Shown here one piece after another: positions 1 through 64,000 of a stretch of DNA of 64,000 nucleotides. The stretch's first letter is position 1; each line of letters opens with the position of its first letter. Both the position numbers and the translations under genes were made by a program. The notes below the pieces were generated by a model that was not told where the DNA came from, made no database searches, and was given only the letters and a program-made list of their open reading frames with translations. Source of the stretch: Rugalucina vietnamica (Eukaryota; Mollusca; Bivalvia; Lucinida; Lucinidae); contig OZ024884.1 in assembly GCA_964017185.1 (NCBI GenBank), positions 17,258,548 through 17,322,547 of the forward strand, given 5' to 3'.

Positions 1-644
1 ATAAATTTTGCCTGACCACAATTGTCTACAACCCATCTTAGACCGAGCACAGCCTTGTATGTTAGATTCTGATACGTGTCTAGAAATGCACCCTGTACAA
101 TATCATTGTATTGCTTATTTTCAAAGTTTATTGCACTCTGATATTGCTTCTTTTCTGGTTTCCCGAGAAGGAAAACTACTCGTATCTTTTGGTTTTCAAA
201 CATACTGATATTTCCCCATGTATTTCGGATGAATTTACGTCGTTCGAAATTGCCGGTCGCAGTATGTACAAGCACCAACACAAACAAATCGCTCACTCCG
301 GAACAAATATTTTCACTGTTAATAAGGTAACTGGTATTTTGAATGGCTAAGTTTGTTGCTTCATCAGTTTTATTTGTGTCTGACTTTGTACGTTTTTCAT
401 TTGACCCACTAGCATTCAAATAACCGTGTAAAACCACAGTAGCTGGCACAGTTCTATTGTTAGCAAACGCAACAGTTTGAAATGATGTCACGATTCTGGT
501 AGCAAAAGTTACAGTTTGAAATGATGTCACGAAAGCACTGTATCTGTAAATTGATAATACCAATGCTAATATAATCATGGAGAGGAGTAAGGTCTCTGTT
601 CTTGGACGGGAACATTTGCTCATCGGTTGCTGTAGAGTTTTCAT
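1..644 (-). CDS. Beta-1,3-galactosyltransferase family protein, 5' part (cut by window edge)
   Basis: Golgi type II glycosyltransferase of the Galactosyl_T (GT31) family, which adds Gal or GlcNAc in beta-1,3 linkage from a UDP-sugar. The minus strand is open for 214 codons from an ATG at 644 to the left edge. Seen in order: a basic cytosolic tail, a membrane anchor at about residues 19-33 (LLLSMIILALVLSIY), a Ser/Thr/Asn-rich stem, then the start of the catalytic domain with FVLVLVHTATGNFERRKFIR, NTWG, YNDIVQGAF and DTYQNLTYK, all GT31 hallmarks. The DDD metal site lies beyond the edge. The stem holds a 39-nt tandem duplication (VTSFQTVTFA then VTSFQTVAFA). A good splice acceptor (pyrimidine-rich, ending in ACAG) sits at about 662, so the ATG probably lies in the second exon behind a 5' leader exon. 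Donor and acceptor sugars cannot be told from this part. Confidence 0.88.
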   Translation of the reverse strand, partial: MKTLQQPMSKCSRPRTETLLLSMIILALVLSIYRYSAFVTSFQTVTFATRIVTSFQTVAFANNRTVPATVVLHGYLNASGSNEKRTKSDTNKTDEATNLAIQNTSYLINSENICSGVSDLFVLVLVHTATGNFERRKFIRNTWGNISMFENQKIRVVFLLGKPEKKQYQSAINFENKQYNDIVQGAFLDTYQNLTYKAVLGLRWVVDNCGQAKF

Positions 645-1324
645 CGCAGCAGATTCAGTTCTGTAATCAAATAGTAGAAGAAACATACTAAAGGTGCAGA
701 AAACAAACAAATCGACATCAAAACCTTTAACAAACAAAATAAATTCGCAACAGGAATACACAAGACTGAAATGAATAGTCAAATGAAGAAGTAAGTGAAG
801 CTGAGCTTTCGGGAAGGGCTAATAACACGGTTAAGCATAATATGTTCTCTTTATCCCTATTTGTAATTTCGGTTGTTTCCTGAGCTTTTAGGATAGCCTC
901 GTTTGGTTCTTATTGCACAAGCTCCTAATTGTTTCTTTTAAAAATCTACGCCAAACGTTACTTATTTTATAGTTATTTGAAAAGGGTAAAACTCACAATT
1001 ACTATCCCTTGTTTTTTATTTCCAGAATGCCAGAAAACAGTTTTACTATCTTTTTTAAAAAAGTCTGGGAACTAGACGGCATTTTCGGCAAAACGCTGTC
1101 ATTTATCAAATGAAGCTTAACAAGCAAACGGACAAAATTTTATTATTTTTTTTCATGAAACTACTTTAAACTTAAGTTCAGATTTTGAAAAGGTTATTCA
1201 CTGGCTCAAATCTTAAATCATTAAAGGGCATAATAAGGGCGGATTGAATTTCGAAAACCTTGACTATACAGGCTGTCAATTATCGTTGCTATTAAACCGT
1301 CGACATTCGGGCTACTCAACATCA
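645..1324. other. Stretch with no recognised gene
   Basis: AT-rich sequence upstream of the minus-strand galactosyltransferase. It would contain that gene's first intron or promoter. I see no convincing exon or repeat here. Confidence 0.4.
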
Positions 1325-1450
1325 GGGAAACATGTCCGTGCAATAAATACCCCCCTAAACCCCAATTTTATATAGTAAAACTGTGGTTTGCAGGGGTATA
1401 CATAGTTTTCTTATTTTTGCTCTGAAAAATAGATTGTGGGTACTCGTTAG
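1325..1450 (+). repeat. Family A MITE-like repeat, left-end fragment
   Basis: It carries the left terminal motif CATCAGGGAAACATGTCCGTG, the run of Cs 'CCCCCCTAAACCCC', the TATATAG stretch and the beginning of the central segment TTCTTATTTTTGCTCTGAAA. It stops before the palindromic centre. The same order is seen in the complete copies at 22168 and 62284. Confidence 0.6.
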
Positions 1451-1650
1451 TTTGTTTGGGGCCCACTGTCAGAAAAAGAAAAACATTTAATTGCGAGTTT
1501 GCTTTAGAAATTGAAATTGCAATTAATGTTATTGCTAATACACAGTGCATATGTAGGTATACTTTGTCGTGCGAACGAATACAATCCCTAGGCTATTCGA
1601 TTAATTCATCGCCTATTCTCTGGATAACCATGGATTTCACTTTTTGAACA

Positions 1651-1945
1651 TCATCAGGAAAACATGTCCGTGACATGTATACTCCCATGCACCCCACTTT
1701 TATGTGGTAAAACTGGGGTATACAAGGGTATACCTAGTTTTCTTATTTTTGCTTCAAAACATAGATTTTGGGTACTCGATAGAGCCGCCTTGGCAAGGCG
1801 GTTTTAACGTTTACCCACGATCTATGTTTTGAGCAAAAATAAGACAAATATCCAGAAGAATGTAATGTTGTTTTTGTTTTTGTTTTTTTAATTTTCAGCT
1901 TTAAAAAATCTCTGTATATTGCATGGGCGTGTTTTCGTAATGGAT
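1651..1945 (+). repeat. Family A MITE-like repeat, near-complete
   Basis: About 295 bp. The left end ATCATCAGGAAAACATGTCC and the right end GCATGGGCGTGTTTTCGTAA form an imperfect terminal inverted repeat. In the centre AGCCGCCTTG is followed by CAAGGCGGTT, flanked by inverted copies of CTTATTTTTGCT...ACATAGATT. No protein is encoded, so a non-autonomous DNA element is the best reading. Confidence 0.7.
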
Positions 1946-3080
1946 TGGTTATCATCGTGCAATGTTGCAAAAAATGTGATGGAATTTTTCAGACTTCTGC
2001 ATATTACATGGGGACAAATGTTTTGAAATATTTGACGGTTTCTGGCAATGATCCCATAGCGAGGTCAACAATATGTAGACATGGAAAACTACAAAAATCA
2101 TTTGACAAAATTAATTACAATAATTGTAATTTATGATTATTTTGGAGACTATACAGTGTATTTATTACTTCGCCACGCAATTAATAATTTGCAATTTCTT
2201 TTTACAAAGAATGCGTTAAGCGGAATTTCTTAATGTAACGATACAGATTATATGCAGTATGTCTTAGATTTATAGTTGAAAGTGATTTATGCTATTTGCT
2301 TTCTTAGGCATAACTATCTTGTCAATGGTTCGGTTTGTCAATCAATTCCATCGTGCGAAGTTAACGTGAATTACGCTGTAGCAGCTTTATTTCAGCTTCT
2401 GAATTTGTATTTTTAAAGTTTTATTTTGGAAAGCAGCATTTTTTCCTGCTTCAGAGCTTGCCTTCAAACCTTTTGTCATCAACTACATTATTAAACCTTC
2501 TGGTTGCTTACGGACTAGATGATAAAACACGTGTCTCTATCGTCTATCGCACCTACGGGTAGAGTAACATCTTGTGAACTTGCGAATCAATAAATTAGAA
2601 AAAAATGTGAATATTGATTTTAACTTTGTTAAATTCGCTTACCTTATTTACAACTATTTCATCTGTTTTTGTACTAGTTTGTCATACTATATACATATAG
2701 GATATTTACCAAATGCTAAAGGTGACGCGCAGGGGCATATTTAGACACGAGAATAAATAGGCCATGCCATTTGAAACAGCTCTCTCGTCTATTGCTACGC
2801 CTATATGTTTGCATCAGATTTGCAATGGTGTTTGACACCCTAGTGGTCTCCATTTCACCATTTGAATATTTTGAATAACTTTGGAGGCGTATTCGGGGCC
2901 CAGTGAGCCGTTGTAATTATACATAAAGGACATTTATGTTTTTCTGTAATTGCTATACGACTTTAAAAATTCAATTGGCGTTTATCGCGTGAACTAACTA
3001 TACATAGAGCACAATGTCAAACCATCGTGTTTATTTTATTTTTAACACCTTCATCATTTTGTAGCACCATTAAGCTGGAG
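1946..3080. other. Stretch with no recognised gene
   Basis: AT-rich intergenic DNA. The last part would include the promoter and 5' leader of the sulfotransferase gene whose start codon is at 3081. I see no repeat family or exon that I can name. Confidence 0.4.
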
Positions 3081-6000
3081 ATGACTTCAACTTTTACAAC
3101 GACGAGACCAAGACGTAACTGTATTGTGTTATGGACGCTTGTTATTCTAGCTGGTGTGATGATGCTCTCATTCAAAGGTAAAATTGATATAAAGGCAGAA
3201 TAGAAAGGCAAGGGATTGATCATGCAATTAAATGAGCGGCGGCGCGAGCAAACCGGTCTGCGGGGTTTCCGACCAGGTCTGACACAAACCGACCTGTGCA
3301 GTCTCAGAAGCAGGCTAGACGCTACAAGTTTCGGATTTAAGAAGAAGAGAAATTGTACTATCGGTGTAGCGAAAACAAAGGCGCTGACCAGCTGTGCAGT
3401 TACTGCACAGCTGATCTGCGCCTTTGGTTTCGCATATGCAGATTGTTGCGTTTCTGATGCAGCGGTTCAAATATTGTCAGAATAGAAAGGCGAGGAATTG
3501 ATGCAATAATTAACTTTGAAGTCCCAACCCATATACAAGTCGGGAAAGTAGCGACAACACATGATGCCACATGAGTTTTAACAACACATAGGAAGAGTAA
3601 CTGATGACTAGCTCTTCCCAAGAAAAGTCGTCATCCAGCTAAAAACTTGGTTTCCTGAAAGTGGCATGTTCTTGGAAAGATTCTAAAATAATATTTGCAG
3701 TTGAGTGTTACATGTACAAGTGCATCTTTACCTCAAGTTTTCATTATTTGTACACTATCCTTATATACACGCGTTATCAAGGGTTACGTCAAATCCACAT
3801 TCGTAGTTGTGAAAAATGAATTATGAAAAGAAGGAAATCAGTCTTTCCGGGATGTCCAAATTGTTTTATATTCCACATGTTTATACCTTCGTTGGATGTT
3901 TCAGAAACTATCTTAAGGTTCCAGTCAGAGACTATTTCAACGGTCCAAGCAGGAATAACTAGCGTTTCAAAGGTCCGATCAGCCCAGGGTCACCTATACG
4001 CAAATCAGGTCAGTAAAAACGTCACATGCAAACTAGGTATATACCAGAAAACTATGTCTTTAAATACTGAATGGGGCGCACTGGCACACCTTGCTTAGAC
4101 ACATCCAGTTTAATGCATGCAATCTGTAGTTGCGGGCGGGGAGGGGGAGGACAATTCTCCTATCACAGTAAATGGTCTTTCGTCTCTCACTAATGAAAAA
4201 GACCATCATTAACTCTTGAATAGGTTCGTGTGTGTTGGTGAGTTCTTTGATGGATGACTAGGCCAATTCTAGCTCTAAACTGTCGGTTGCAAGTAGAGCA
4301 AGTCAAGATATCAGCTGGTGGCCCATTAGTATTGACTTTGCGTTCTATGCGCTTTCTTTCAGCTTCACAGGTTCTCTTTTTTCATAGAGAGCTGCTCCTT
4401 TAATGACGAGACCTCGCTGCTTTTATCGCTCCTATGCAATCTGTTCCCAAGACCCGTTGGTATGTCGAAATCCTTCAGAGAGGCATTGAGTGTGTCTTTG
4501 TAGCGTTTCTTCTGGCCACCTTGAGAGCGCTTCCCTTCTGTAGTTCTCCATAGAAGACTTTTATGGAAGTCGCTCATCAGGCATTCTTATAACATTGCCA
4601 GTCCATCTTAGCTGTGCTACCTTTAAGGCAGTACCCTGCTTTCTTCAGGACCTCTGTGTCTAGAATCTTGTCTTGCGACTTGATTTTTAATAGCTTTCTC
4701 AAACAGCTTGAGTGGAAATGGTTAAGTTTTTTTGCATGACGCTGTTATACTGTCAAGGTCTCACATGCATACAAGAGGGTTGACAGTACCACAGCCTTGT
4801 GACTTTCAGCTTGGTGTCAAGCTTGATTCCGCTCCCAGACATTTGCACGGAGTCTTCAGGATGCCACACTGGCTTTTGTAATTCTGGCAGTGACCTCATC
4901 ATCAATGTGCACTGCTCTGGAAAGAGTGCTTCTCAGGTAGGCGAATTTTTTAATAACTTTCCGTTTTTGTCCATTCACAGTGATGGTTGGTTCATTGTAC
5001 AGTTTTCCAGGTGCTGGTTGGTGTACAATCTCTGACTTTTTGTGCTGATTGTCAGATCATAGTTATCACATGACTATGAGACTTGATCCATGGCTTTATG
5101 CATTTTTACCTCTGAGCTGGTATTTATATCTATGTCGTCTGCATAGAGGAGCTCATCTAGCACATCAGTCTGCACCTTAGTTTTGGCTTACAACCTATAA
5201 GGTTTAATATATTGCCATCAAAACGGTACCTGATTGGAAAATCAGTGTCGCTGTCCTTGAAAAGCATCCATGAGCATAGCAGAAAACATCATGCTGAACA
5301 CTGTTGGTGCCATAACACACCCCAGTATGACCCCATTCGTTACCCCAAAAGGTTCTGAGAACTCCATCATTTTGCACACGTGCCTGCATGCCATCATGAA
5401 ATTGCCGCATATTTGCTATTGCTATGAATCTAGGTGGACAGCCAAACTTGGCCATAATTTTCCAGAGTCCATCACGACTAACTGTCAAAAGCTTTGGTGA
5501 GGTCGACAAACGTCTAGTATGGATCTACATTCTGTACTTGGCATTTCTCCTGAAGCTGTCTTCTTGTGAAGATCACGTCTATTGTCCCTCTGTCTTTTCT
5601 GAATCCACATTGACGTTCTGCAATAAGTCCCTTCTGATGAAGAAGAACATTCAGATTCAACAAAACAATTGCCAGTATCTTTCCAGCAACGTATAGGAGG
5701 GAGATGCCTCTGTGGTTATCACAGACTTGGTGATATCCTTTCCGCTTGTATAGGTGGATTCTGGGTGCATCCTTAAATTCTTGTGGGAAAGCTTCCTTCC
5801 TCCATATACAGTGAAACAACTCTGTCAGTTTCTCTGCCATGGATAGCCTCCCAGCCTAATAAACCTTTGCAGGAATTGCATCTGCACCGTGAGCTTTGCC
5901 AGATGACAGTTGTTGAGCTGCTTCTCTTGTTTCCATGACGGTTGGAAACAGAACATTGCTCTATATCTGTGGAACTGTGTCGATTTCATCCTTATTGATG

Positions 6001-9000: not shown

Positions 9001-11847
9001 AACAAGCCTTCAGCGTAAATATTTCAAAAATACTTATTTCAATTTAAAACAATCTTTTTGGCATGTAATTGTTGGTCAGTAATATAATATGACTATTCTT
9101 ACATACATGGGGCCCGTATGAACTTAACCATATTTGCATATTCATGAATATTGATCTGAAAATAAGATATTGAAAGAAAGTTCAATTAAAACCGTAAACA
9201 TACTTATTTAAGTCAAACACCAGCATCGTGTCAAGTTGTCGTTAATCATTTATGCGATGTGCATGACCTAACATGTAATGGATCTATGTGAAAATTTGAA
9301 TATCCACAAAAGTATCGAACCAGTGGCATCAATCAATCGATCTGTCTATCCATATAAGTCAAAGCTGAGTGATTTATCCCCATGTCATATCTGTTGAATC
9401 CTAGACTTGCTTCGTTAAAGTTTGAAATTGTGATTAATTCGATTACTTTGGTGAATAAAAATAATCATTCATATGCAAATTCATGGTATTCAAATTAGAT
9501 AATTTGCACTTCTGAACAGTGTAATAAGTTTTGTTTGTAACCATTTCTTAGTTAATGCTTGTTCAATATTCTATAGCAGACATGTGATGAATTAAGAGTG
9601 TGTTGTGGTAAACAGTATTAATTTGGGTTTTTTTCCTGTATTTTCTAAAGTTTTCATTAATATTCATGAATATGCAACTAAGAAATTTTGCATAACCACA
9701 GTGGCTTAGCATAAAGTTGACTCTGTATGGTATTGATGGTATTGGACAAGTGCAATATAGGTACATTTACATCTGTAAGGCACTCAAATCATTTTTATTC
9801 TGTTCGTTAATTTCTGATAAAGCACTTTGGTTTTCATCAATATTCATGTATATGGAATATGTAAATTTCATATTTTGCATATTGAATGCAGATTAGGTTC
9901 AAAAGCTGAGCCGAAGCATTGTTAATAACATATTAGGTTGACAATGTTAGAATTTGAATACGAGTAATTACTTATTCAACTTATTGGAACTGTAGTATCG
10001 GTTGCTATGGAAACCATGAATATATGCATTATCCATATGCACTTTTGCAGTTTATGGGTTTTTCTCTCATTTTTACATTAAGGAAGTCCCTCTTACTATA
10101 ATGCTTCAGTGATGTTCTTTCTGAAGTATGTAACGAAGGTCTAAATATCACAAGCCAACCCTTAAATGGATATGAGTTTAGTCATTTCTTTTTGTATTTC
10201 ATTAAAATTCATAAATTTCGACATGGCCACTTTTCTTTATGGTAATTGAATGACTTGTTCAGAAGTATTAATGACGCCATAGCAACATATCATTCTATGG
10301 TTTGAACTGAAATTAATGAAGTTATGAAGTTCTAACAGACTTACTTGTTTTCCAATTACTTTCAGTGTTTTCATTAATATTTATGAATATGAAAATTCAA
10401 TTTAATTTTCATTATAACACCAATTAATGCAAGGCAGGTGTGTAAGCTCTAAATTGATACCAACTTCAGTGGTCTACAACAAGTAAAAGCTGAAATATGA
10501 CCATCTTTTCCCATTAGCTGATATATCAATATTGAAATTGCTTTGAATGGGTCATGACCTTTGACCCAAGGTCATTCCTATAAGAAAGGTCATACACATG
10601 TTTTAATATTATTTTCATGAAGAGCAATAACAAGGCTATATTTCACAACATTGTCACTCAGCTCGGTTGGGGGCTATTTTTGGCTCTTAATGCACGTCGC
10701 CCTTTCATTTCTTGATTCTATGATTCAGACTCTTCTGAAAACTGCTTCGCTTACACACTATGTTAAACAAGTCTGTGACGAAAATGATCTACAGACAACG
10801 GCTGAGAAAAGGAAACAAGCCATGTTTAACAAGATGCGCTTAATACCACCCAAAAAGTTCCTGTACTGCCCTGTGGAAAAAGTAGGGTCGACATTCTGGT
10901 GGCGGGTGATGTATCTACTTCAGATGCCTTCTAAAGGGTACAAACATCCGTTTGAAGTTCCAATCCCTGACGTTTTAACACTAAAACACACCGGGTACAA
11001 TCCAAGTGCTGACTACAATGACTGGTTCCGTTTTATGTTTGTACGAAATCCATATTCCAGGCTACTTTCCATTTACGTCGATAAATTGTTAGTTCCAAAT
11101 CCAGTGCACTGGAACAACATGGGAAAAGACTCGATCAAAATGTTTCGTAAAAATGCAAGCCAAGTGAGTTTGAATTGCGGGCATGATCCATCTTTTCTAG
11201 AATTTGCGCAGTTTGTTGTCTGGTCATTACGTACAGGAAAGAAATTAAATATTCATTTCCTCGTGGCTTCGGAGATGTGTATGCCATGTGATATGAATTA
11301 TACTTTCATAGGGAAGATGGAAAATGCAAAAGGTGATTTCACATACGTTCTTAGGCAATTTGGTCTCGATTCTGTTGTGAAAGAAATGGGTGATAAATTC
11401 TCTAATCTCACTGCTGAGGACGCGATCATTGACAGTATAACAGCTCCATTTGGGTGGAAGAAAAACATCTTGAAATGTATGAATTGGAATGAAGCACTTA
11501 TGAGAGTTTGGAGAAAACTTCAAATACGTGGCCTTGTTGGAATCAGCCAGTTCTATCCTCTAAATGAAACAAGAGCTGAGACAATTGAAGCTAAAGAATT
11601 TATTCGCCTAGCAATGACAGCGAGAGAACAGTCAAGGCATGATGAACTGAAAAATCAAAAGACGGAAATCTTTGAAAGTATATACAGAGCTATACCTAGC
11701 AATGTATTGTCCCAGATAAGAGATGCGTATAGATTAGATTTTAAACTTTTTGGGTATGATGACAGCCCAGAGACTTTCTTTGGTCAGAGAAGTATAGGCA
11801 ACATGCAAATTGATTTTTTGAACTTTAAGAATGCTGTTATAACTTAG
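3081..11847 (+). CDS. Carbohydrate sulfotransferase, HNK-1ST/CHST8-14 type (Sulfotransfer_2), three exons
   Basis: Golgi enzyme that would move sulfate from PAPS to a hydroxyl on a glycan such as GalNAc. Proposed exons: 3081-3177, 3905-4008, 10729-11847; phases 1/1 and 0/0 agree, giving 439 residues. Exon 1 supplies the type II anchor (residues 14-31, CIVLWTLVILAGVMMLSF), exon 2 a short stem, exon 3 the whole catalytic domain. The 5'-phosphosulfate loop is LYCPVEKVGSTFWWRVM (about residues 111-127), the 3'-phosphate site RFMFVRNPYSRLLSIY (about 168-183), and the C-terminus has the family ending YRLDFKLFGY. The exon 3 acceptor follows a good pyrimidine tract (CCTTTCATTTCTTGATTC). Exons 1 and 2 are inferred from splice signals, phase and the need for an anchor; a shorter product starting at ATG 10690 is possible. 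Intron 2 holds a decayed LINE and a satellite-like array. CHST8/9/11-14 cannot be told apart here. Confidence 0.75.
3230..3484 (+). repeat. Family B MITE-like repeat
   Basis: Ordered blocks shared with copies at 33905 and 63538: GAGCGGCGGCGCGAGCAAACCGG, then GGTCTGACACAAACCGACCTG, GAAATTGTACTATCGGTGTAG, then the hairpin GCGAAAACAAAGGCGCTGAC...CTGATCTGCGCCTTTGGTTTCGC. It lies in intron 1 of the sulfotransferase gene. A short overlapping reading frame is a by-product of the repeat. Confidence 0.7.
4210..7260 (-). mobile_element. Decayed non-LTR retrotransposon (LINE), antisense in a host intron
   Basis: Broken reading frames on the minus strand follow LINE order. At 6960-7260 is an endonuclease remnant (DFNARVGTD, then a TWMHPRSKHTHHIDYVI-like stretch in shifted frames). 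At 5961-6224 comes the linker into reverse transcriptase (LTDKEAILERWAEHFNSVL). At 5204-5840 are reverse transcriptase pieces (PRIHLYKRKG, NHRGISLLYVAGKILA, CGFRKDRGTIDVIF, and a degraded form of the AFDTVSRDGLW and GVKQGCVLAPTLFS motifs). At 4365-4577 is the C-terminal GKRSQGGQKKRYKDTLNASL. Several frameshifts and stops make it inactive. I cannot assign the clade. It is inserted opposite to the host sulfotransferase gene and is itself split by a family S element at 6550-6925. Confidence 0.8.
6550..6925 (+). repeat. Family S repeat inserted in the LINE
   Basis: About 375 bp from TGAACCACTGCAGAAGCTGA through CAGTAATTTTATATTACTGG and TTCTGTGGTGGTTCTTTCGT to CTCGGTTTTTGGAGTGGGAA. Near-identical order and length to 15051-15416. 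There are no terminal inverted repeats and no coding capacity; a SINE or other short retroelement is possible, but I see no clear A and B boxes. Confidence 0.7.
7729..7828. repeat. Perfect hairpin with ~32-bp arms
   Basis: The left arm begins GAGCCCAGCTAAATACC and ends AGATATTTTCA. The right arm is its exact reverse complement (TGAAAATATCT...GGTATTTAGCTGGGCTC), with a loop of about 37 bp. No family member elsewhere in the window was recognised. Confidence 0.75.
8020..10545. repeat. Diverged ~178-bp-period array with an orientation flip
   Basis: The motif ATTTGCATATTCATGAAT or close variants recurs near 8413, 8588, 8762, 8932, 9131, 9468, 9650, 9834, 10010, 10196 and 10370, spacing mostly 170-186 bp. 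In the left half it reads TTTGCATATTCATGAAT; in the right half the reverse form ATTAATATTCATGAATATGC. A flanking block is also inverted: ATGGTTTCCATAGCAAC near 8030 and GTTGCTATGGAAACCAT near 10002. It lies in intron 2 of the sulfotransferase gene and holds no open reading frame of note. Confidence 0.6.
10545..10600. promoter_or_regulatory. Cluster of nuclear-receptor half-sites
   Basis: The sequence contains GGGTCATGACC (inverted pair), TGACCTTTGACCC (a direct repeat with one base between on the other strand, DR1), CCCAAGGTCA, and a further AGGTCA just after, all within about 55 bp and about 130 bp before the catalytic exon of the sulfotransferase. DR1 sites are bound by RXR, HNF4 and PPAR-type receptors in animals. 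Function here is inferred from motif density only, and it could be part of the neighbouring repeat. Confidence 0.35.
10729..11847 (+). other. Terminal exon with the complete sulfotransferase domain
   Basis: The firmest part of the gene starting at 3081: 372 uninterrupted codons carrying both PAPS-binding motifs and the FGY ending. The reading frame extends a further 26 codons upstream to 10651, but that extension begins with TTG and overlaps the pyrimidine tract of the acceptor, so I take it as intron. A close relative of the last 36 codons and the first 45 bases of 3' flank is found at 63796-63943 on the other strand. Confidence 0.9.
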
Positions 11848-22108: not shown

Positions 22109-22167
22109 TTAACTTCAGTCTTGACTTATTTTTATTTCTTTTTGGCTAAAATGATTTTGTTTTCCAT

Positions 22168-23930: not shown

Positions 23931-23932
23931 TA

Positions 23933-41982: not shown

Positions 41983-41994
41983 ACAATGTCGTGA

Positions 41995-46800: not shown

Positions 46801-47240
46801 TGAACTGTTGCTGCTCACTCATAAACACTGTGATTATTTTTTTTTTTTTGATAACTTGGTTAGGTGACGCCCCTCATTGTTAAAGATATCACAATCACAA
46901 TCATTTCCTACGAAATGATATCGAACTGTTGCTGCTCACTCATAAATACTGTTTAACACGTCTATAGACATTTCATAATGCATTTATTCTTGGCAAATTG
47001 TATCTAATTTCAAATATAAACTTGGCTGATAGGGTGTGAATATAGGTCACAGCTAACTGGGTCCTAGCCCACAGGCACTGTGAGAGACTTGTGCTTCTGC
47101 CTCAAGTACAACTCACTGACACACCATCTGGATACCGGCTAACCGCGTAGGTCTGAGATTTCCCCAGATACTGTGGTTTAGTCAAACCATCCATACACAT
47201 AAGATGTTTACTTGGTGGGTAAACTTTATAGCACATTTCG
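43830..47240. repeat. ~1.5-kb tandem duplication that copies a 36-nt exon
   Basis: Unit 1 is about 43830-45335, unit 2 about 45340-47240. Shared in the same order: CCAGTTTTAACGC or CCAGTTTTAACAC, CAGTCGACGTCAGGTAACC-like, AACGTCAAAAACATACGTAAC, the GGTCCCGAGG / CCGAGGGCGTAGCCC hairpin, AACGAAAGAAATAATGGTGCA, the exon at 44841/46169, GAACGGTTGCTGCTCACTCA or GAACTGTTGCTGCTCACTCA, and a SINE-like tail (CACCATCTGG). Unit 2 has an extra 0.6 kb, including a 110-bp block repeated at 46722 and 46848 (AACTTGGTTAGGTGACGCCC). Confidence 0.7.
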
Positions 47241-50200: not shown

Positions 50201-53200
50201 GAGAGTCACAACTTCAAACCTTTTTAAAACACATCCATCCTTTCTTGCGAAACCAGTCACTTAATTATAGAATATTTATTATTGAAATGGTGAGTAGAAG
50301 GTTGAGAGAATGCGATTAATGTTTTGAGCATAAATCTTAAAAATATAAAAAAATTTCTGGTGAAAATTTTCATTTTTTACACCTGAAAAATTATCTGTAC
50401 ATTGCATGGGCAAGCTTTCGTAATGTTCCGGTCGGACTGCAATGTACCCCGGCGAGGCGGTTCTAACGTGTACCCCACAATCAATGTTCTGAGTAAAAAT
50501 AAGAAAAAATTTCCTTACAAAATTTTCAGTTTTCACAACTTGATAAATCTGTGTATATTGCATGGGTAAAGTTTTCGTAATTGGTCATCACCAGTTTTTT
50601 CTGCAAAGAATCACTCGTCTTGCAACCGGTAGTTTAGATCTAGAATTGGCCTGAGCACATAGACACATATAAACGATCTAACTATCAAGAAAAATAGATG
50701 GTATTTTTATTATATTATTATATTAGTGAGAGACGATTATTGAGCATAATAAAGAATGCAAATGGTAATGGCAGTGAGCAAGTTGAAGTACGATTTCGTA
50801 AACTAAATAAAATAATCCTCCCATTGAAAATGGACAGCGAATTTATGACCTCGTTTAGTTCGAAAAACACTGAATAACCATGTTTTATTACACCATTCGA
50901 TATAAATAATGACCACCACATCGAAACATTCTAATGGCTTTTAAAAACAAGTAACTCATGAAAACTTAATTATCATTCCAGGCACAAAACATCACATTTA
51001 ACCGTGGAGCTCTATTCAATATTGGATTTAAAGAAGCTAACAAACTGAAGACCTTTGACTGTTTTATCTTTCATGACGTTGACCTGTTGCCTGAGGACAA
51101 CAGAAATGTTTACACATGTGCACGAATGCCCCGGCATCTGTCAGCTGCAATTGACAAGTTTGAATACAGGTTAAGTATTTGAAAGCTTTTAGCACCCCGG
51201 TTTGTATAAAAGAGTTCTACGGTAGTTTACAGGGGCGGAACCAGGATTTCTGAAGAGGTGGTTCAAATGTAGAAAATATTTATTAAATCTTTTTATATGT
51301 TTGAGCCTTTGCATGAGAAAACCAACAATTTGCATATGCTTAAACAGAGAAGCAGATCAGCTGTGCAGTAACTGGCGAGTAATCGAGAGATCAAGAAACA
51401 GCGCTCTTAACTGCTCGGCCACCGGGGCCGCAAAATTATTATTTGACATAGTATATACATGTTCTTTCCTTTTTACAGTTTACTTTACAAAAACATCGTT
51501 GGTGGGGCCTTGGCAATGAGCACACGTCAATTTAAAGAGATAAATGGTTTTTCAAATATGTTCTTCGGCTGGGGAGGAGAGGATGATGATCTTTATAGAA
51601 GGTAATCATATACATCAGGAAAACATGTCCGTGAAACATATGCCCCCTTGAACCCCACTTTTATACAGAAAAACTGGGGTTTGCAGGGGTATACCTATTT
51701 TTCTTGTTTTGCTCCAAAACATAGTTTGTAGGTACTCGTTAGAACCGCCTCGCCGAGGCGGTTCTAACGTGTACCCACAATCTATGTTTTGAGCAAAAAT
51801 ATGAAAAAATATCAAAACTGAAAATTTTCTTTTTTACAACTTTAAAAATCTCTGTATACTGCATGGACATGTTTTCGTAATGAAGCAGGTTAATAGGACC
51901 CCACTCTCACCCTAAGACTCTGCAGCGACTCATTCACACATGCGCAATGAAAATACTTTCGAAGAGTTTAAGATACATCTTAACCTCCATCTATAGTTAA
52001 GATGTGTCAATATCACCCTCAAATAAAGAGTTTAGCTATTATAACCAACATCAATAAGTGACTATTTTGTCATTATGCTCTACCTGATGCCATTTAAAAT
52101 GGTACTATACAATAAATAGGTTTCACATATTATCGTGTATCCTAATCACACGAAACGAGTATGTATAAGCTTGAAAATTAATGCCTTATGTTTTCTATTA
52201 TACTACGAGGGACACCGAGGGACACCGAGGGACATAGTATTTACTATTCTGCCAAACTATGAAATAACTGCTTCAATACCCAATTGACTCGGGTAACATT
52301 AACGAGTTTATTATCATTTAAACATAAACTATTTTATGCCCTTATATCCTTCTTGATCGGATAGCATACAAAAAGCAGACAGCATACAAAAAGCAATACC
52401 AATGAATAATATATTCAATGCACGACGCATACATGTAATATAAATATCCTTCACAGATCCGACTCAATACCAAAAACTTCAAGGTCTGTCCCTTAGAGTG
52501 GAGGGGCTGGGAGAAATTCAACCCAATATACGTGACTATGCGTACCAACCGCTGATAATCGTTGTGACATTGTATGAATAGCGAGTTTAGCTTAGGAAAA
52601 ATGCCGATTTTCGGCTTCCAATATTCTGATCAAGTTTAGATTAAATGCGACCTTAATAGAGACGTTTGACGTCATTTATCGTTATTCTTGGACACTTGAT
52701 GCTATTGAAAAGGTCAAAATTGAAGATGTACGTAACGTAACAAAAACACTAAATTAGTATCCATTGAGTCATTATGAAACGAAACTGAATGGGAAGGTTA
52801 AGAGAACAGAAACACAATTAAAAGCATAAGTAAATCTATTTTACAAAGGTATAATAATATGTCACCTAAGTCCCACAACCGATCAAAGCAAAGCATTCCG
52901 TGCACAATCATACACGGGGTGAAAGTCTGGTTCCGCTGGGTTGAGCACAAAACATCTTGTACTCTAGTTTTTGGCGTTTGTATCGCGACGTTTTAAATAC
53001 TTCTTTTCCCGTAAATGCAGCGCCAGTACATTAAAATTTAAATTTAATTACCGTCAAAAAAAAAAAAAAAAAATTCTCTTGTAGAGATAGAGATAGAACA
53101 GTAGTAAAAGCGTTTCATATCGAATGTATATACAGGGTGTACATGTATGTTATGAATGATCTTAAAAATAATAATTGAACACAATTTTTTCCATTTCAGG

Positions 53201-54116
53201 ATGTACTATAAGAATATGACAATACTACGATATCCAATGGATATAGCGAGATATAAGATGATTCCCCATGGCACGGACCAACCAGAGAATAAACATAAGT
53301 AGAATATTATTTTTTTTAATTTGGGTGATTTCAGTGATAACCTGAAGTTTAGCTAACATCACGAAAACATGTCCATGTAGTGTATACCCCCTTGAATCCC
53401 ACTTTTATATAGCAAAACTGGGGTATGCAGGGGTATACCTTATTTTCTTATTTTTGCTCCAAAGCATAGATTGTGTGTACTCGTTAGAACCGCCTAGATG
53501 TACTCACAATCTAAGAAGGAAAAATAAGAAAAATATCAAAATATTCAGCTGAAAATTTTCAATTTTTAAAGATCAAAAAATCTCTGTTTATTGCATGGGC
53601 AGTTTCGTAAACATTATCTGTATGCATAAGCCGAAAACTCAAAGTTGAGTTATTATTATATGCATTGATAGACGCCTGTCGTCCGTCCTTCCACTTTTTT
53701 TCATTTTCATTGTCAAAGATATTCTCCTCCAACATGGTTTGGCCTGCAGCGTTTCTTTGTTTATTACGAAATCTTGCCCATGCAATAAAGAGAGATTTTT
53801 AAAGTTGTAAAACTGAATGAAAATTTTCAGTAGAAAATATTTGCCATTGTTCTTATTTTTGCTCATATCATTGATTGTGGGTACACGTTAGAACCGCCTC
53901 GCGGTTCTAACGAGTACCCATATCTATGTTGTAGAGCTAATATAAGAAAAAATAGGTATACCCCTGCATACCCTAGTTTTGTTATATAAAAGGGGGGTTT
54001 GAGGGGGTACACATTTCACGGACATGTTTTCCTGATGTTTGAGCCAGGCTTATGATTTTGGTTCGTGTCGTGAGACATGTACTTTTGTTTACAATTAGAG
54101 ATATTGTAGCCTGTAT

Positions 54117-54166: not shown

Positions 54167-55088
54167 CAACAACAAAAAAAACAACAACATTTTGTGCATT
54201 TCGTTGGCGAGGAACGACAAATTAATGTTAAACATTAAAACTGTCTTTTTTCTAAAAGTACCCGGAACCAAGCGAATTCCTGATATGAGTTTGTCCTTTC
54301 TCAAGCACTTGAAAATGCATATTAACTGAACGCTTATAAATGTCGTCAGGTATTCTGTGACTTTCGAAATTTGGAGTTTTATTACAATTTGAACCTTTGC
54401 GTGAGAAAACCAATAAATTGGGTTCCGACAAGGTTCGACCTGGTCCGAAACAAACCGGACTGTACCGTCACAGAAGATGCTAGAGGCTGGAAATTTTGGA
54501 TTTAGAAAGTAGAGGAATTGTAGGCAGTGTAGGGGAAAACGAAGGAGCTGATCCGCTTCGCAGTCACTGCGAAGCTGATCTTCTTCTTTGTTTTCGCCTG
54601 TGCAGATTGTTGGTTTTCCCATGCAGCGGATCATTTTTGAAATATCCTACAAATCGCAAGGCACAGCGTTTTAAAATTTCGAAGCCACATGATAGGATTT
54701 TTAAGTTGTATTATCAATGATCGAACACAATGAGACCTCAAAATGATACAAGGATTTATATGAAGGGGTGCGTTTCTACAGTGTCTCAGTATATCATAAC
54801 ATTCAATGTTTCATCAACGTGAAGTAAGCGAATTCTTTCAGTCATCTATCTTTGTTTCACGATTTTAGAACTACGCTCCTTAAATCAACAAGAACAAGAA
54901 TGATCTACGACGGTCTTAACAGCATACAGTACAAGGTTCTACGACTAGAGTTCCTTCCCCTGTACACATGGATATTGGTGTCGATCAACGAAGCTAACAT
55001 AACAGCTTCAAAATTTAAACGTCCTAACACTCATTCTAAAATAAAGTGCAAATCCTGGAGAAAAAAATGTAGAAAAATAAACGTTTAA
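44841..55088 (+). CDS. Beta-1,4-galactosyltransferase family protein, probable GalNAc-transferase type (5' end not found)
   Basis: Golgi GT7 enzyme adding Gal or GalNAc beta-1,4 to GlcNAc. Stem exons, all phase 1-1: 44841-44876 and 46169-46204 (duplicated 36-nt exon, YLETSLRRKE), 47458-47511 (ETKLHVLEISRNLSLSLK), then three extra copies of the next exon at 48509, 49077 and 49505. Catalytic exons: 50057-50289 (PGGQYKP, LLVPYRNRESQLQTFLKHIH), 50982-51169 (FNRGALFNIGF, metal site FHDVDLLPEDNRNVY, PRHLSAAIDKFEY), 51479-51601 (NIVGGALAMS, GWGGEDDDLYRR), 53200-53298 (MIPHGTD metal-binding His), 54869-55088 (DGLNSIQYKVL, PLYTWI, basic tail, stop). Phases agree at every catalytic junction. Where bovine B4GALT1 has Tyr289 (QYFGG) this protein has Ile (NIVGG), the residue linked to GalNAc transfer in invertebrate homologues. 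AATAAA lies at 55123. The first exon with the anchor is missing from my model. Confidence 0.88.
47045..47345 (+). repeat. SINE-like repeat with A-rich end
   Basis: It shares CACCATCTGGATACCGGCTA, GTGGTTTAGTCAAACCATCC, GGTGGGTAAACTTTATA, GGATGCCATGGCGTCCCCAT and CGCAACGTCCCGCCATG with 45125-45310 and 58070-58280. It ends in a long A run with TAAA repeats. Confidence 0.5.
47650..48219. other. Intron sequence: reversed-end family S fragment, otherwise nothing
   Basis: 47655-47775 matches the left part of family S in reverse order (CACAACAAGAGCACCGCCTTGG, AACCGGTATTACGGGATC, CTTCATGTGGTTCA). 47776-48219 shows no exon or named repeat. Confidence 0.45.
48220..50170 (+). repeat. Four tandem units of a glycosyltransferase exon and its intron
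   Basis: Units begin with AACAGAAACTACGGTTTTAAAA or a variant near 48222, 48668, 49215 and 49650 and each ends at TCTACAGGTCA or TCTACAGGTTA. Each holds a 111-nt copy of the exon coding RNVEIASST...GGQYKPNSN: 48509-48619, 49077-49187, 49505-49615, and 50057 onward. Only the last copy continues into the catalytic domain. In the other three, coding similarity breaks right after ACAGGT and a stop follows unless the weak donor GTCAAA/GTTAAA is used. Units 2 and 4 share the same reversed family S fragment (48966-49045, 49942-50025) at the same place, so an A-B pair was duplicated as a block. Confidence 0.85.
50300..50580 (-). repeat. Family A fragments in a B4-type gene intron
   Basis: Two right-end pieces lie in series: TTGAGCATAAATC...GCATGGGCAAGCTTTCGTAA, then CCGGCGAGGCGGTTCTAACG...GCATGGGTAAAGTTTTCGTAA. 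Both are in the intron after the exon ending at 50289. Confidence 0.55.
51297..51430. repeat. Family B start plus reversed SINE head
   Basis: 51299-51365 holds the family B beginning (GAGCCTTTGCATGAGAAAAC, CAGATCAGCTGTGCAGTAAC). 51375-51430 is the reversed tRNA-like head of the SINE at 55453 (AAACAGCGCTCTTAACTGCT, CGGCCACCGG). About 50 bp ahead of the exon at 51479. Confidence 0.55.
51606..51885 (+). repeat. Family A repeat, complete, beginning at a splice donor
   Basis: It runs from CATCAGGAAAACATGTCCGTG to GCATGGACATGTTTTCGTAA with the perfect centre GAACCGCCTCGCCGAGGCGG. It starts only about 10 bp after the donor of the exon that encodes the GWGGEDDD motif. Confidence 0.8.
51886..53199. 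other. Intron sequence with nothing recognised
   Basis: AT-rich intron of the beta-1,4 glycosyltransferase gene with a short A run at 53056-53072 and a triplicated GAGGGACACC-type word near 52205-52230. Confidence 0.4.
53358..53615 (+). repeat. Family A repeat, left part intact
   Basis: It begins CATCACGAAAACATGTCCATG and ends GCATGGGCAGTTTCGTAA. The palindromic centre is reduced to GAACCGCCTAG. Confidence 0.7.
53762..54042 (-). repeat. Family A repeat, reversed, complete
   Basis: It begins TTACGAAATCTTGCCCATGC, has the centre GAACCGCCTCGCGGTTC, and ends TTTCACGGACATGTTTTCCTGATG. It faces the copy at 53358, so the two together could form a large hairpin in one intron. Confidence 0.75.
54120..54163. 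repeat. (AC)n microsatellite
   Basis: About 21 uninterrupted AC units, followed by AAAACAACAAC. Intron of the beta-1,4 glycosyltransferase gene. It is translated in several frames but is not coding. Confidence 0.95.
54390..54632 (+). repeat. Family B repeat, complete
   Basis: GAACCTTTGCGTGAGAAAACC at the start, GGTTTTCCCATGCAGCGGATC at the end, and the central hairpin GAGCTGATCCGCTTCGCAG...CTGCGAAGCTGATCTTCTTC. Confidence 0.75.
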
Positions 55089-59540: not shown

Positions 59541-59761
59541 AAGAAACGACACACTGTGTTTTGAGCAAAGGAACAACGTTGTATCATCAGTGTCTACGAT
59601 ATTCAGATTATTTAATCTACTTTACCTAATGTGTTTTTTTTCCCTTTTGATTAGTTTAAGGCATCTTTCTTTTGTAACAATATCTCCAGACCTACAAGGT
59701 TCGTTGGAGTTAAGATACGCCTCGTGTGAAATGTATTACTCTGTCTTTTACCTAGTATGTG

Positions 59762-61472
59762 TTAACGTTTGTTTTTCGTTTTGAATAGTTCAAGGCATCT
59801 TTGTTTTGTAAGAATGTCTCCAGACTCACAAGGTTTGTTGTAGATGGATTCCATCAATGCCATAGGAACACCATGTACCGTGATAACGTTCATACATTTA
59901 TACCAACAAAGAGGAAAATGATTACTGTATTTAACTGAGGTGTGTAATGGTGTATCTGTTAATTTTAAACCCATATGTTTCAGACAAAGTCCTACGAATG
60001 CATCTTCAAAAGGTATGAAGTCTACTTTTGGATAAATATTCAATATTCCTTGCACATGTTTCATTGATAACACATACCCCGGGCCGCTGTAGTAGTTAGG
60101 ATACGTTTTGTTTGGATACGCCTCGTGCGAAATGTACCATTTAGTCTTTAAATCACGTTTAGGATATGCCGATTTGACGACTCTACCAAATGAGAAGTTT
60201 TCGTCTTCTAGAGTCAGCAGTTCTAACAGACTTGGAATGTTATTATAAACATCATCATCTGTTTTCATTATAAATCGCGCATGCGCACAATGGTTGTTGG
60301 CAAAATGAAAACCAGCTATGGTCTTTAATGTAAGATTTCTGTAAGTATCTTGAAAATTTACAATCACTATATCGTTGAATTCATTCGCTTCTTTCGTAAG
60401 TTTCTGTTGTAGAATATAGTCATCTGTTTCACCTACAACAAATACATACCTCACGTTGGTGTTATCATTGGCTGCTTTAAGCCAAGAGTTTCTGAGTGAC
60501 TGTCGTTTGCTGCTATATTCAACAGCTGAGGAGATTAGAATAAGCAAGTCTAAAGAACTATTTTCTTCTTTTAACTTGCATATATTTGGAAGATCTTTGA
60601 TGAATTTAAATTTATGCAGGAGTCTTGTCTTGAAGTCTCCTCCTGTAAAAGTAGTCTCGTTTACCGAGTCTCCTCGTGTAAAAGTAGTCTCGTTTACCGC
60701 TCCCTGCAAACTTTGGTTCATGTTTGTCTGGTGACCAATAGATGCAACCGGAACATGACTTGTGCTGTAAATGATACAAATAATCATTCCATTGCACCAA
60801 ACATTATTGAGAAGCTAAAGATAGAAAGACAAACAAACAGACAAAAAGGAATTATGAGAAGTTCTTTAATATATATGAGCCGCCGCAACCAACAAGGCGA
60901 AAACAAAGGCCTAGATCAGCTTCGCAGTAACTGCGAAGCTGATCAGCGCCTTTGTTTTCCCTACACGGATAGTACAATTCTCTAAATTTTCCAGCCTCTA
61001 ACCATCTTCTTTGACTGTACCGCCCGGTTTGTGTCGGACCTGGGCGGAACCCAATTTGATGGTATTCTTGCGCACAGGCTCATATAGTAATTCTTTATCA
61101 TATTTTGTATCTATATATTGTCTTTCTACGTACTTTAGTTTTACATTTTGCACTCTCAAAAATAATTCAACCTTTTCAAAAATGTTTATGTATGTAAATT
61201 CTTGTATTATTAGCCTGTCATGTAACGTAAGAGAAACAGTTATAGGATCTGACTTACATGTACTTAGACGCATTGGCATGATGCCTGTACATATCCACTT
61301 TTGCGAGTCTTCCTAAATTGTCTTTTCCACGTTTCATCCCATTTCCAGCGTGCAAGCATACTAGCAAAATGTTAACTACACATAACAGTAACAACAATCC
61401 GACCACAGCTTTGCTTAGATGAACTCTCATCTGATCCTGTATCATCCATAGTAGTATGTCATGTATTTTCAC
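59762..61472 (-). CDS. Beta-1,3-galactosyltransferase family protein, two exons, complete
   Basis: Golgi GT31 enzyme. Exon 1 is 61472-61258 with a perfect donor (GTAAGT); exon 2 is 60764-59762 with the acceptor TTTGTATCATTTACAG. Both are phase 2, giving 405 residues. Exon 1 holds the type II anchor (AVVGLLLLLCVVNILLVCLH, about 22-41). The stem has a 10-residue tandem repeat (VNETTFTRGD-SVNETTFTGGD) with N-glycosylation sites. Catalytic motifs: LILISSAVEYSSKRQSLRNS, DTYRNLTLKT, FIMKTDDDVY (metal-binding DDD about 241-243), YYSGPGYVLS, and FEDAFVGLCL, as expected for the family. The start could instead be the Met at residue 10 or 15 of the same exon. A family B element (60880-61085) sits in the intron. 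It is distant in sequence from the left-edge relative, so not a recent duplicate. Donor and acceptor sugar are not predicted. Confidence 0.9.
60880..61085 (-). repeat. Family B repeat in the galactosyltransferase intron
   Basis: GAGCCGCCGCAACC at the left, the hairpin GATCAGCTTCGCAGTAACTGCGAAGCTGATC, GTACCGCCCGGTTTGTGTCGG, and TGCGCACAGGCTC at the right. Confidence 0.75.
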
Positions 61473-62937: not shown

Positions 62938-63170
62938 TTGAGCCTCCACATGGGAAAACCAACAATCTGCATAGGCGAAAACTTAGGCGCAGATCAGCGG
63001 TAACCGCGAAGCTGATAAGGGCATTTGTTTTCGCTACTCGGATAGTACAATTCCTCCTCTACTTAACTCCAAAATGTCAAGCTTCTGGCTCTTTTCTATG
63101 CTTGTACAGGTCGGTTTGTGTCGGACCTGTTCGGAAACCACATTGTTGGTTTTCCCACGAGGCGGCTTAT
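62938..63170 (-). repeat. Family B repeat
   Basis: GAGCCTCCACATGGGAAAACC at one end and GGTTTTCCCACGAGGCGGCTTA at the other, with the central hairpin CGCAGATCAGCGGTAACCGC. The internal order (hairpin before GGTCGGTTTGTGTCGGACC) shows reverse orientation. Confidence 0.75.
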
Positions 63171-63537
63171 TTGGTTGTATCCGCAAATATTGGACAGTTA
63201 AACCATTTGAACAGGTAATGGGAAACTTCGTGTTTTCAGAAACTTACATGTAAATGCATCAAAACATAGATAACTTTGTTCGGGATAAGATTAGATATAC
63301 AAGTACCCCCAATGTCAATTTGTTGCATTCAAGTTATGATTTGATTTGTACATTATTTGCATATTCAACAAAATAAAATTGTTGTGTTTTATTAACGTTG
63401 CAAATAATCTGGAACTCTCAACTTGAGGTAAACAATCATCGAAGTCCACCTTTTTTACGCGGCAATTGGGCAGCCGTCATCTTCTGCAACACTGATATTG
63501 AAATATTAAAGGAGGAAAGCGAACAAGGGATATAATT

Positions 63538-63775
63538 GAGCCGCGACGCAAGAAAACCGGTCTTCGGGGTTTCCGACAAGGTCTGACACAAACCGGCCTG
63601 TACAAGCTCAGAAAAGAGCTAGAAGCTTGAAATTTCGGATTTAAGTAGAAGAGGAATTGTACTATCCGAGTAGCGAAAACAAAGGCGCTGATCAGCTTCG
63701 CGGTTACCGCGAAGCTGATCTGCGCCTTTGTTTTCGCCTAGGCAAAAATCCGGTTTTCTCATGATGCGGCTCATA
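63538..63775 (+). repeat. Family B repeat, complete
   Basis: GAGCCGCGACGCAAGAAAACC to CCGGTTTTCTCATGATGCGGC, nearly perfect inverted ends. The central hairpin GGCGCTGATCAGCTTCGCGG / CCGCGAAGCTGATCTGCGCC is perfect over more than 25 bp. It begins 20 bp from the preceding spacer and ends about 20 bp before the paralogue fragment. Confidence 0.85.
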
Positions 63776-63795
63776 TAATTCCGATATTTGCAACA

Positions 63796-63943
63796 TAGAT
63801 TTATTAAATGAGCTTGAGACTTAGTGAAGCCAATTAAGTTATCACATTATTTTTGAAGTTCAAGTAATCAATTTGCATGTTGTCTACACTTCTTTGACCG
63901 AAGAAAGTATCTGAGCTGTCATCATACCCAAATAGTTTAAGGA
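63796..63943 (-). pseudogene. C-terminal piece and 3' flank of a second CHST8-14-type sulfotransferase
   Basis: The minus strand from about 63943 reads LKLFGYDDSSDTFFGQRSVD then NMQIDYLNFKNNVIT and a stop at 63834. This is nearly the same as the end of the sulfotransferase at 11847, and about 40 bases of 3' flank (to 63796) also match. Upstream of 63943 the similarity stops and an in-frame TAA appears just before ATAAG, so the piece is either a last exon (acceptor ATAAG) of a gene beyond the edge or a truncated duplicate. The window cannot decide. Confidence 0.7.
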
Positions 63944-64000
63944 CTTATGGGTGGTCACTGTATATACATAATTAAAGATTTACCTGTATAAAAAACATTG

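Follow-up and report, generated by a model that had tools for sequence, protein, structure and literature searches.

A grouping of several different sugar-chain building and sulfating enzyme genes, unusual for an animal genome, in the bivalve Rugalucina vietnamica

The genome of the bivalve Rugalucina vietnamica contains a grouping of several different kinds of sugar-chain building and sulfating enzymes that is unusual for an animal genome. The window analysed here spans 64,000 bases (C16:17258548-17322547) of this 1.09-Gb genome. It lies in the midst of a locus at least 0.3 Mb long (C16:17.18-17.47 Mb), where several families of Golgi enzymes adjoin, and related genes extend on to 17.82 Mb. 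The families are GT31, in three diverged subfamilies; CHST8-14-type, CHST15-like and HS3ST-like sulfotransferases; further Sulfotransfer_1 exons, which judged by their motifs look like CHST1-7 type; one GT7 gene; and GT10 fucosyltransferase genes. As a rule, the genes of an animal glycan pathway are assumed to be dispersed, and in the literature searched, which has most subscription journals outside its coverage, no such mixed animal glycogene locus is described by title or abstract. We tentatively propose, as a reading close to evenly balanced, that this is a birth-and-death locus which may supply the Golgi with enzymes that build LacdiNAc-type antennae bearing fucose and sulfate.

The window was scanned with Pfam in all six frames and then again as joined exons. 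A preliminary description had reported six or seven glycan enzymes in it, and Pfam domains were indeed found for a GT7 gene, a CHST8-14-type exon, the CHST15-like and HS3ST-like genes and two GT31 genes, one of them truncated by the window's edge; a further CHST is represented by its 3' end. The cluster is larger than was claimed, but it is doubtful that two of the six or seven genes encode active enzymes. The same description expected more glycosyltransferase and sulfotransferase genes on both sides, and scans of the flanks have borne this out. Among the Pfam results listed for the flanks (93 of 191 frames, 25 of 73 families) are matches to GT10, Galactosyl_T, Sulfotransfer_1 and retroelements, weak coiled-coil matches and, at the left end, one SET/MYND/TPR gene. 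Beyond the glycan enzymes, the six-frame scans of the window gave no more than mobile-element and weak matches, namely RVT_1 (0.0042), sideroflexin (0.053) and a C2H2 finger (9.6e-4); as the CHST15-like exons were missed by the unjoined scans, the absence of other window genes rests on limited sensitivity.

Both GT31 genes have a Galactosyl_T domain and a DxD-type motif, as members of that family do, although the first, GT31a (1..644, minus strand, start codon at 644), is present in the window only as its N-terminal 214 codons and runs on to the left, where it is completed by the flank (frame C16:17258124-17259365, 356 aa). Its window part matches Galactosyl_T at 1e-19, the whole frame has KVDDDV, and its best PDB matches are B3GNT2 (2.9e-24) and B3GALT5 (1.2e-23). 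GT31b, also on the minus strand, consists of a signal-anchor exon (61258..61430), whose splice phase matches that of a catalytic exon with the DDD motif and the stop (59762..60764); it matches Galactosyl_T at 2.7e-49 (59765-60814), has the motif KTDDDV and is closest in the PDB to B3GALT5 (6.4e-34). Similarity among GT31a, b and c is only 28-39%, and GT31b reaches 72% with a gene on C6; the subfamilies thus do not all derive from recent local tandem duplication.

The GT7 beta-1,4 glycosyltransferase proposed earlier is confirmed by Glyco_transf_7N (1.9e-41) and Glyco_transf_7C (3.7e-28). On the plus strand, its first exon found (50057..50289), with the start of Glyco_transf_7N, is placed by splice sites, and alignment to B4GALT1 places the next exon with the DVD metal motif (50982..51169), an exon with NIVGG and WGGEDDD (51479..51601), one with the MIPH motif (53200..53298) and the last exon with the stop (54869..55087). 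The aligned protein has DVD, WGGEDDD and the Met/His residues, which act as metal ligands. The Ile of NIVGG aligns with the Tyr before FGG of B4GALT1, the donor-switch position, presumably Tyr289, and we take it that replacement of this Tyr by Ile or Leu switches the donor from Gal to GalNAc. The front of the first known exon recurs as three extra 111-base copies, open and with AG/GT flanks, which lie ahead of it on the same strand (48509..48619, 49077..49187 and 49505..49615), and no upstream anchor exon was found in searches from 41983 to 50056 and from 22109 to 50056.

The CHST8-14-like catalytic exon (10729..11847, plus strand) has 372 codons and a stop, and carries both the Sulfotransfer_2 domain (7.1e-38, 10729-11844) and the PAPS loops of that group, the loops being judged by eye; its 66 database relatives bear names ranging from CHST8 to CHST13. 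A putative signal-anchor first exon with an ATG, a hydrophobic stretch and a GTAAAA donor (3081..3177, plus strand) is uncertain: its end is in phase 1 but the known exon that follows begins in phase 0, which points either to a wrong assignment or to one more, missing exon. The four nearest paralogues of the catalytic exon (97, 91, 89 and 79%) all lie at C16:17.19-17.78 Mb, the next being a 52% match on C12, and all six CHST paralogue pairs have dN/dS of 0.17-0.24 over 339 codons; the CHST copies are under purifying selection. The "relative" of this gene noted previously is truly akin to it (82% identity), but the window holds only the last 34 codons of this fourth copy (63837..63938, minus strand), with its main exon outside at C16:17323206-17324222.

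The CHST15-like gene (plus strand) gives a Sulfotransfer_1 match of 6.5e-9 once its exons are joined, the unjoined frames having none, which upholds its assignment as a sulfotransferase, but it is frame-broken as assembled. Exon 1 (13877..14380), an open frame with membrane anchor, stem and a GTATGG donor, recurs in two other blocks, with 89-90% identity at the protein level. Exon 2 (15940..16156) bears the PAPS-binding loop FPKAGTTD and has two additional bases near its end relative to the other two copies, causing a frameshift. Exons 3 (17157..17347), 4 (17958..18114, the 3'-phosphate loop region), 5 (19011..19173) and 7 (21903..22108, with the stop) are placed by the gene model and the block copies, whereas exon 6 (20802..20948) is five bases shorter than the M2 copy and is again frameshifted. 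No intact reading frame is found as assembled, with exons 2 and 6 shifted and the other two copies also damaged. Against the PDB the joined exons gave weak HS3ST matches, with no CHST15 chain among the 11 matches; the resemblance to CHST15 is tentative.

The HS3ST-like gene (40822..41982, plus strand) is a single open frame of 386 codons, with a 63-base tandem repeat in its stem region (40946-41140) and an AlphaFold model of pLDDT 86.8. Its naming as an HS3ST-like sulfotransferase is favoured by the PDB matches to HS3ST5 (3.6e-37, the best) and HS3ST1 (1.1e-35) and by Pfam Sulfotransfer_1 (1.9e-13), but it lacks the usual catalytic base of HS3ST, the Glu of the (E)xHFFD stretch, having Val where HS3ST5 has Glu. 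Judged by eye, this Glu is absent from 31 of the 33 parsed relatives and present in P0035 and P0037 (4 of the 37 relatives were unparsed). An HS3ST-derived clade without the catalytic glutamate would raise a question of its own in sulfotransferase chemistry, and one open to testing. Between 22109 and 50056 the search revealed no exon for a membrane anchor.

It had been argued that the families are not homologous and that tandem duplication therefore cannot explain the grouping. This is half right, because a mixed block of GT31, CHST and CHST15-like genes occurs three times, and the sulfotransferase families have the PAPS P-loop fold in common, with weak Pfam cross-matches between them when exons are joined. 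The blocks differ by 2-21% (14 aligned pieces of at least 1 kb). Many copies have decayed: all three CHST15-like genes look damaged, several GT31a copies are broken and one GT10 is broken. Mixed-block tandem duplication has thus raised copy number while single genes decayed, and the locus is a birth-and-death locus. On C12, at 46.13-46.14 Mb (C12:46.13-46.14 Mb), a GT31 and a CHST gene lie 12 kb from each other; the idea that they are an old copy of the block was rejected, as this CHST is only 26% like that of the window.

Genome-wide, matches to all five of GT31, GT7, GT10, Sulfotransfer_1 and Sulfotransfer_2 come together in a single group, the one at C16:17.18-17.47 Mb. Null simulations used either uniform placement or three-fold denser genes, with linkage at 50 and 100 kb. 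A five-family group arose in 0 of 5000 simulations under uniform placement (and 0 of 2000 in an earlier run), and with denser genes in 0 of 5000 at 50 kb and 4 of 5000 at 100 kb. For the four families of the window, a four-family group arose under uniform placement in 0 and 2 of 5000 (50 and 100 kb) and with denser genes in 9 and 20 of 5000; a weaker test on three families only gave a three-family group in 89 of 2000. Besides the locus, 14 groups of two or three families exist at 100 kb, and the 15 two-family groups observed exceed the 7.0 expected under uniform placement but not the 19.2 expected with denser genes. The five families were picked post hoc and the co-clustering test was run without control families; with that qualification, the sole five-family group and the simulations support the view that several families adjoin beyond chance, as first suggested.

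If the preferred reading of LacdiNAc-type antennae holds, the enzymes of the locus would extend and decorate antennae of glycoprotein or mucin glycans, with GT7 adding beta1,4-GalNAc onto GlcNAc to give LacdiNAc, a GT31 adding beta1,3-Gal, GT10 adding alpha1,3-Fuc and CHST-type enzymes adding sulfate; mixed tandem duplication would then change the dosage and specificity of several steps together. In humans, CHST8/9 and B4GALNT3/4 form a pathway that makes sulfated LacdiNAc, and its logic, LacdiNAc formation and then 4-O-sulfation by a CHST8-14-family enzyme, is that proposed for the locus, although it uses another GalNAcT family than GT7. These pathway genes are, to our knowledge, not clustered in mammals. 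The vertebrate HS3ST and CHST15 enzymes have glycosaminoglycans as their substrates, which we count against the antenna reading, and it is weakened further by the damaged CHST15-like copies, the broken GT31a and GT10 copies, the HS3ST-like protein without its catalytic base, the failure to find anchor exons for GT7 and the HS3ST-like gene, and the weak constraint on the GT31a copies M1b and M3b (dN/dS 0.70). According to PMC8699351, a mollusc beta1,4-GalNAcT resembles mammalian beta4GalT and a beta1,3-GalT then acts; fucosyltransferases are covered as well, and sulfated Gal occurs in oyster glycans. The Lymnaea LacdiNAc antenna pathway outlined there uses the same kinds of enzyme as the locus (a GT7-like GalNAcT, a beta1,3-GalT-type GT31 and a fucosyltransferase), but the passages on it deal with activities rather than adjoining genes and the scheme includes no sulfotransferases, whereas the locus is known from genes alone. 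A LacdiNAc-type product would fit both the Ile at the GT7 donor position and this snail pathway (PMC8699351).

Neutral co-location, in which duplication and rearrangement brought large, lineage-expanded glycogene families together by accident in a repeat-rich region and they were then amplified by tandem duplication without a shared pathway, seems quite possible, if on the doubtful side. Four of the five families are large genome-wide (80, 102, 150 and 125 matches; GT7 is smaller, with 28), many copies are decayed, mobile elements lie in and around the window, and the other multi-family groups match the gene-dense null (15 observed against a mean of 19.2). It is countered by the near absence of five-family groups from the simulations above and by the matches listed for the flanks, given above. 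Even a neutral grouping would show how glycogene families, once expanded, mix in mollusc genomes.

A stronger form of the shared-pathway reading, an animal glycan biosynthetic cluster kept by selection, with the mixed block gained and lost as a unit, a surface glycan that is sulfated, fucosylated and variable, and a mollusc HS3ST-derived clade with a replaced catalytic base, we consider unlikely. A locus that combines at least five families of glycan enzymes and has grown by amplification of mixed blocks would make one glycan directly accessible to genetics, and would test whether selection can cluster animal pathway genes. Plant metabolic gene clusters (PMC8418127) likewise have different enzymes of plausibly one pathway adjoining, whereas this locus is animal, concerns macromolecular glycan enzymes and is known from genes alone. 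Perna viridis has tandem pairs of beta-1,3-galactosyltransferase or fucosyltransferase genes within single families (PMC7971044); both cases are tandem glycogene duplication, but here the duplicated block is itself mixed, in a locus that combines at least five families.

More improbable still is a polymorphic recognition locus, in which the cluster stays together because haplotypes of its glycan-modifying genes specify a surface glycan that varies and on which pathogens or gamete recognition exert selection. The duplication of mixed blocks, the decay of genes and the one GT31a pair at dN/dS 0.70 agree with it, as do relatives listed on a 3,248,188-base contig that are 97-99% (CHST) and 93% (HS3ST-like) alike and may represent another haplotype; that contig could instead belong to another species, and the CHST genes are conserved (dN/dS about 0.2). 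An assembly artefact is very improbable, for although near-identical repeats and duplicated blocks are hard to assemble and the frame breaks could be base errors, the blocks differ too much to be copies of one sequence and the contig bearing the window is 38.9 Mb. The check for misassembly, which would have undone the original claim, is partial: the flanks overlap the window letter for letter, within the same assembly, and the database relatives P0038 (CHST, 97% identical) and P0002 (HS3ST-like, 93% over 64% of the query) list the same 3,248,188-base longest contig, suggesting that the two genes are linked in a different assembly or haplotype too.

Mobile elements are present within and around the window. 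An Rfam SECIS_1 match was dropped as a sign of a selenoprotein, as it sits in a repeat with nine matches in 260 kb, the window's own included. An Rfam tRNA match, not called by ARAGORN, sits among repeats that we take to be SINE-like.

The glycogene locus on contig C16 of the assembly is real and unusually mixed. Pfam scans of the window (C16:17258548-17322547), in six frames and as joined exons, bear out the families named in the preliminary description, returning two GT31 genes (GT31a at the left edge, and GT31b), one GT7, one Sulfotransfer_2 and two Sulfotransfer_1, and otherwise only retroelement and weak matches. The GT7 model comprises five exons whose splice sites are plausible, that of GT31b two exons of matching phase, the CHST8-14-type sulfotransferase (CHST) a single large catalytic exon with an uncertain anchor exon, and the HS3ST-like gene is a single open frame; GT31a is truncated by the window edge, and its frame is intact once the flank is added. 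The CHST15-like frame, however, is broken, and the supposed separate relative of the CHST gene is instead the 3' end, 34 codons long, of a fourth CHST copy. The main exon of that copy (C16:17323206-17324222, minus strand) lies about 0.7 kb away, across what may be an intron or an insertion. Apart from a beetle protein among the weakest matches, the named relatives of the window CHST protein are molluscan; the nearest is 44% alike, from Mercenaria, and those of two freshwater mussels are 38-41% alike, which suggests a bivalve. Reverse transcriptase gene fragments, LINE-like as read by eye, lie within the presumed first intron of this gene (4368-6281, minus strand), and a Rfam SECIS_1 match above threshold (14764-14831) sits in a dispersed repeat, with nine matches in 260 kb including the window's own and three others 98-99.5% identical.

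To what extent the grouping exceeds chance was assessed against the whole genome (1,089,854,562 bases, 47 contigs), where hits, which are exons or fragments and not genes, numbered 80 for GT31, 102 for Sulfotransfer_2, 28 for GT7C, 125 for GT10 and at least 150 for Sulfotransfer_1, for which 149 of 358 candidates were scored. Linkage at 100 kb gave 13 groups with two families, one with three (C16:17.650-17.818 Mb) and one with five (C16:17.181-17.471 Mb; 14 GT31, four Sulfotransfer_2, three Sulfotransfer_1, three GT10 and one GT7). When within-family blocks were placed at random (uniform null), a five-family group arose in 0/2000 simulations and, in a larger run, 0/5000, and a four-family group in 1/2000 and 14/5000, respectively. 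With genes confined to one third of the genome (dense null), five families met in 4/5000 simulations at 100 kb and 0/5000 at 50 kb, and four in 167/5000 and 39/5000. For the window's four families only, a four-family group was seen in 2/5000 (100 kb) and 0/5000 (50 kb) under the uniform null, and in 20/5000 and 9/5000 under the dense null; a first, weaker test (three families, 150 kb linkage) gave a three-family group in 89/2000. All of these figures overstate significance, since the families were picked because they had been seen here, the finding came from a scan and the nulls were built from these families alone. The 15 observed groups of at least two families exceed the 7.0 of the uniform null (reached in 6/2000) but not the 19.2 expected under the dense null, so that no general clustering tendency of these families is demonstrated; the C16:17.181-17.471 Mb locus is an outlier.

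The observation of a cluster is confirmed in part, and its interpretation, which had set tandem duplication aside because the families were unrelated, is likewise partly supported. The sulfotransferase families have a PAPS-binding fold in common and so are not fully unrelated; the joined-exon scans show weak cross-matches between them. Moreover, within 260 kb pieced together from the window and 20 neighbouring stretches, which agree wherever they overlap, a block of GT31a (minus), CHST (plus) and CHST15-like (plus) is present three times: M1 at about C16:17.181-17.218 Mb, widened by a retroelement, M2 at 17.224-17.253 Mb, and M3 at 17.258-17.281 Mb, of which only the 3' part of GT31a falls outside the window. 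Among 14 between-block pieces of at least 1 kb, 12 are 88-98% identical and two 79-84%, with shorter pieces down to about 70%. The nearest genomic relatives of the window CHST are all on C16 (97, 91, 89 and 79%), the next, on contig C12, being 52% alike, and dN/dS of 0.17-0.24 in all six pairs of the four copies in the fetched region (339 codons) shows that the CHST copies are constrained; for the GT31a copies M1b and M3b it is 0.70. Separate GT31 lineages have also met here, since GT31a, GT31b and the 17.347-17.650 Mb group resemble one another at 28-39%, while a gene on contig C6 matches GT31b at 72%.

None of the three CHST15-like copies is intact as assembled. In the window gene, which has seven exons in order, exon 2 exceeds that of both neighbours by two bases close to its end, and exon 6 falls five bases short of the M2 copy. 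M2 has a stop codon within the frame of exon 2, and a search of the 260-kb region did not turn up exons 6 and 7 of M1. A run of A in exon 2 could hide a sequencing error, which would account less easily for exon 6. For exons 1 and 5, dN/dS is 0.20-0.62. These genes probably no longer contribute to the proposed pathway.

Extending the locus both ways, as had been suggested, brought further genes of these kinds. To the right of the blocks lie the HS3ST-like, GT7 and GT31b genes and the fourth CHST, then GT31 genes or pieces at 17.332, 17.347, 17.414, 17.471 and 17.650 Mb, Sulfotransfer_1 exons at 17.396 and 17.426 Mb (CHST1-7-like by our reading of motifs), GT10 at 17.387 Mb (3.4e-46), 17.698 and 17.818 Mb, and a fifth CHST at 17.781 Mb. 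A FUT8-like open frame of 369 amino acids right of the window (flank stretch L025:999-2105; weak match, 0.0016), with an HxRxG-like stretch noted by eye, is possibly another fucosyltransferase of the locus. To the left are M1 and M2, a broken GT10 copy (17.254 Mb), a weak GT92 frame (2.8e-4) and, at about 17.159-17.165 Mb, a gene with TPR, SET and MYND frames. Flank content rests on 93 of 191 frames of at least 85 amino acids scanned with Pfam, one scan giving 25 of 73 matched families among the matches listed, a good part of which were weak and of coiled-coil type, so other genes may also lie in the flanks. To the right, the sequence covered runs to 17.460 Mb, with further pieces at 17.466-17.476 and 17.645-17.655 Mb.

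These families are type II Golgi enzymes, and a change from Tyr to Ile or Leu at the GT7 donor position makes a GalNAc transferase. The window GT7 has Ile there and is the predicted GalNAc transferase of the scheme. Families, order, block duplication and decay are directly seen; the product of the locus would be fucosylated, sulfated LacdiNAc-type antennae, as suggested by this Ile together with published accounts of mollusc glycans. Passages of a review of mollusc N-glycans (PMC8699351) describe a beta1,4-GalNAcT, a homologue of mammalian beta4GalT, that acts on GlcNAc and is followed by a beta1,3-GalT; they also mention fucosyltransferases and, in oyster glycans, galactose that carries sulfate. 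Portions of other reports name sulfated galactose in the Eastern oyster (PMC6994554), sulfate in marine molluscs (PMC6935376) and, in infested scallop mantle, changed expression of carbohydrate sulfotransferases (two up, one down) and raised fucosyltransferase expression (PMC6281612).

The GT7 gene has four tandem copies of a 111-base segment, the start of its first known exon (48509-48619, 49077-49187, 49505-49615 and 50057-50167). As all four are open, a multiple of three in length, in the same phase and preceded by an acceptor AG, and the three extra copies carry a GT donor, the latter could be spliced as a repeated 37-residue stem unit.

The HS3ST-like protein (40822-41982) matches HS3ST5 and HS3ST1 and has a confident structural model (pLDDT 86.8), but Val is aligned to the Glu that is the catalytic base. 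Of its 37 database relatives, 33 segments were parsed and 22 sequences aligned; by eye, the Glu is missing in 31 of the 33 and present in two distant ones (P0035 and P0037), and the PAPS-loop lysine is retained in all except P0033 (32/33). Three relatives are listed on contigs of 681,598 bases each and three on 258,487, so there may be several such genes per genome. P0002 (93% to this protein) and P0038 (99.5% to the M1 CHST, 97% to that of the window) are each listed on a contig of 3,248,188 bases, and P0039 (CHST, 79%) and P0104 (the window's own GT31b) on one of 9,956,516 bases, which suggests that each pair shares a contig; P0038, P0002 and P0039 may represent other haplotypes or other species.

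Elsewhere in the genome, CHST8-14-type and GT31 hits lie 12 kb apart at C12:46129636-46142751, divergent as in the C16 block, the CHST being 26% like that of the window, and a second GT10 array, of ten hits of similar score, spans 1.15 Mb (C16:27974732-29125384). Within the window, 22109-40700 is about 18 kb without a six-frame Pfam match, provided that the single Sulfotransfer hit is the HS3ST-like gene, and contains a 190-base tandem repeat (32418-32967); directly behind GT31b lies a short copy of its C-terminal end (59634-59705; 62.5% over 24 residues).
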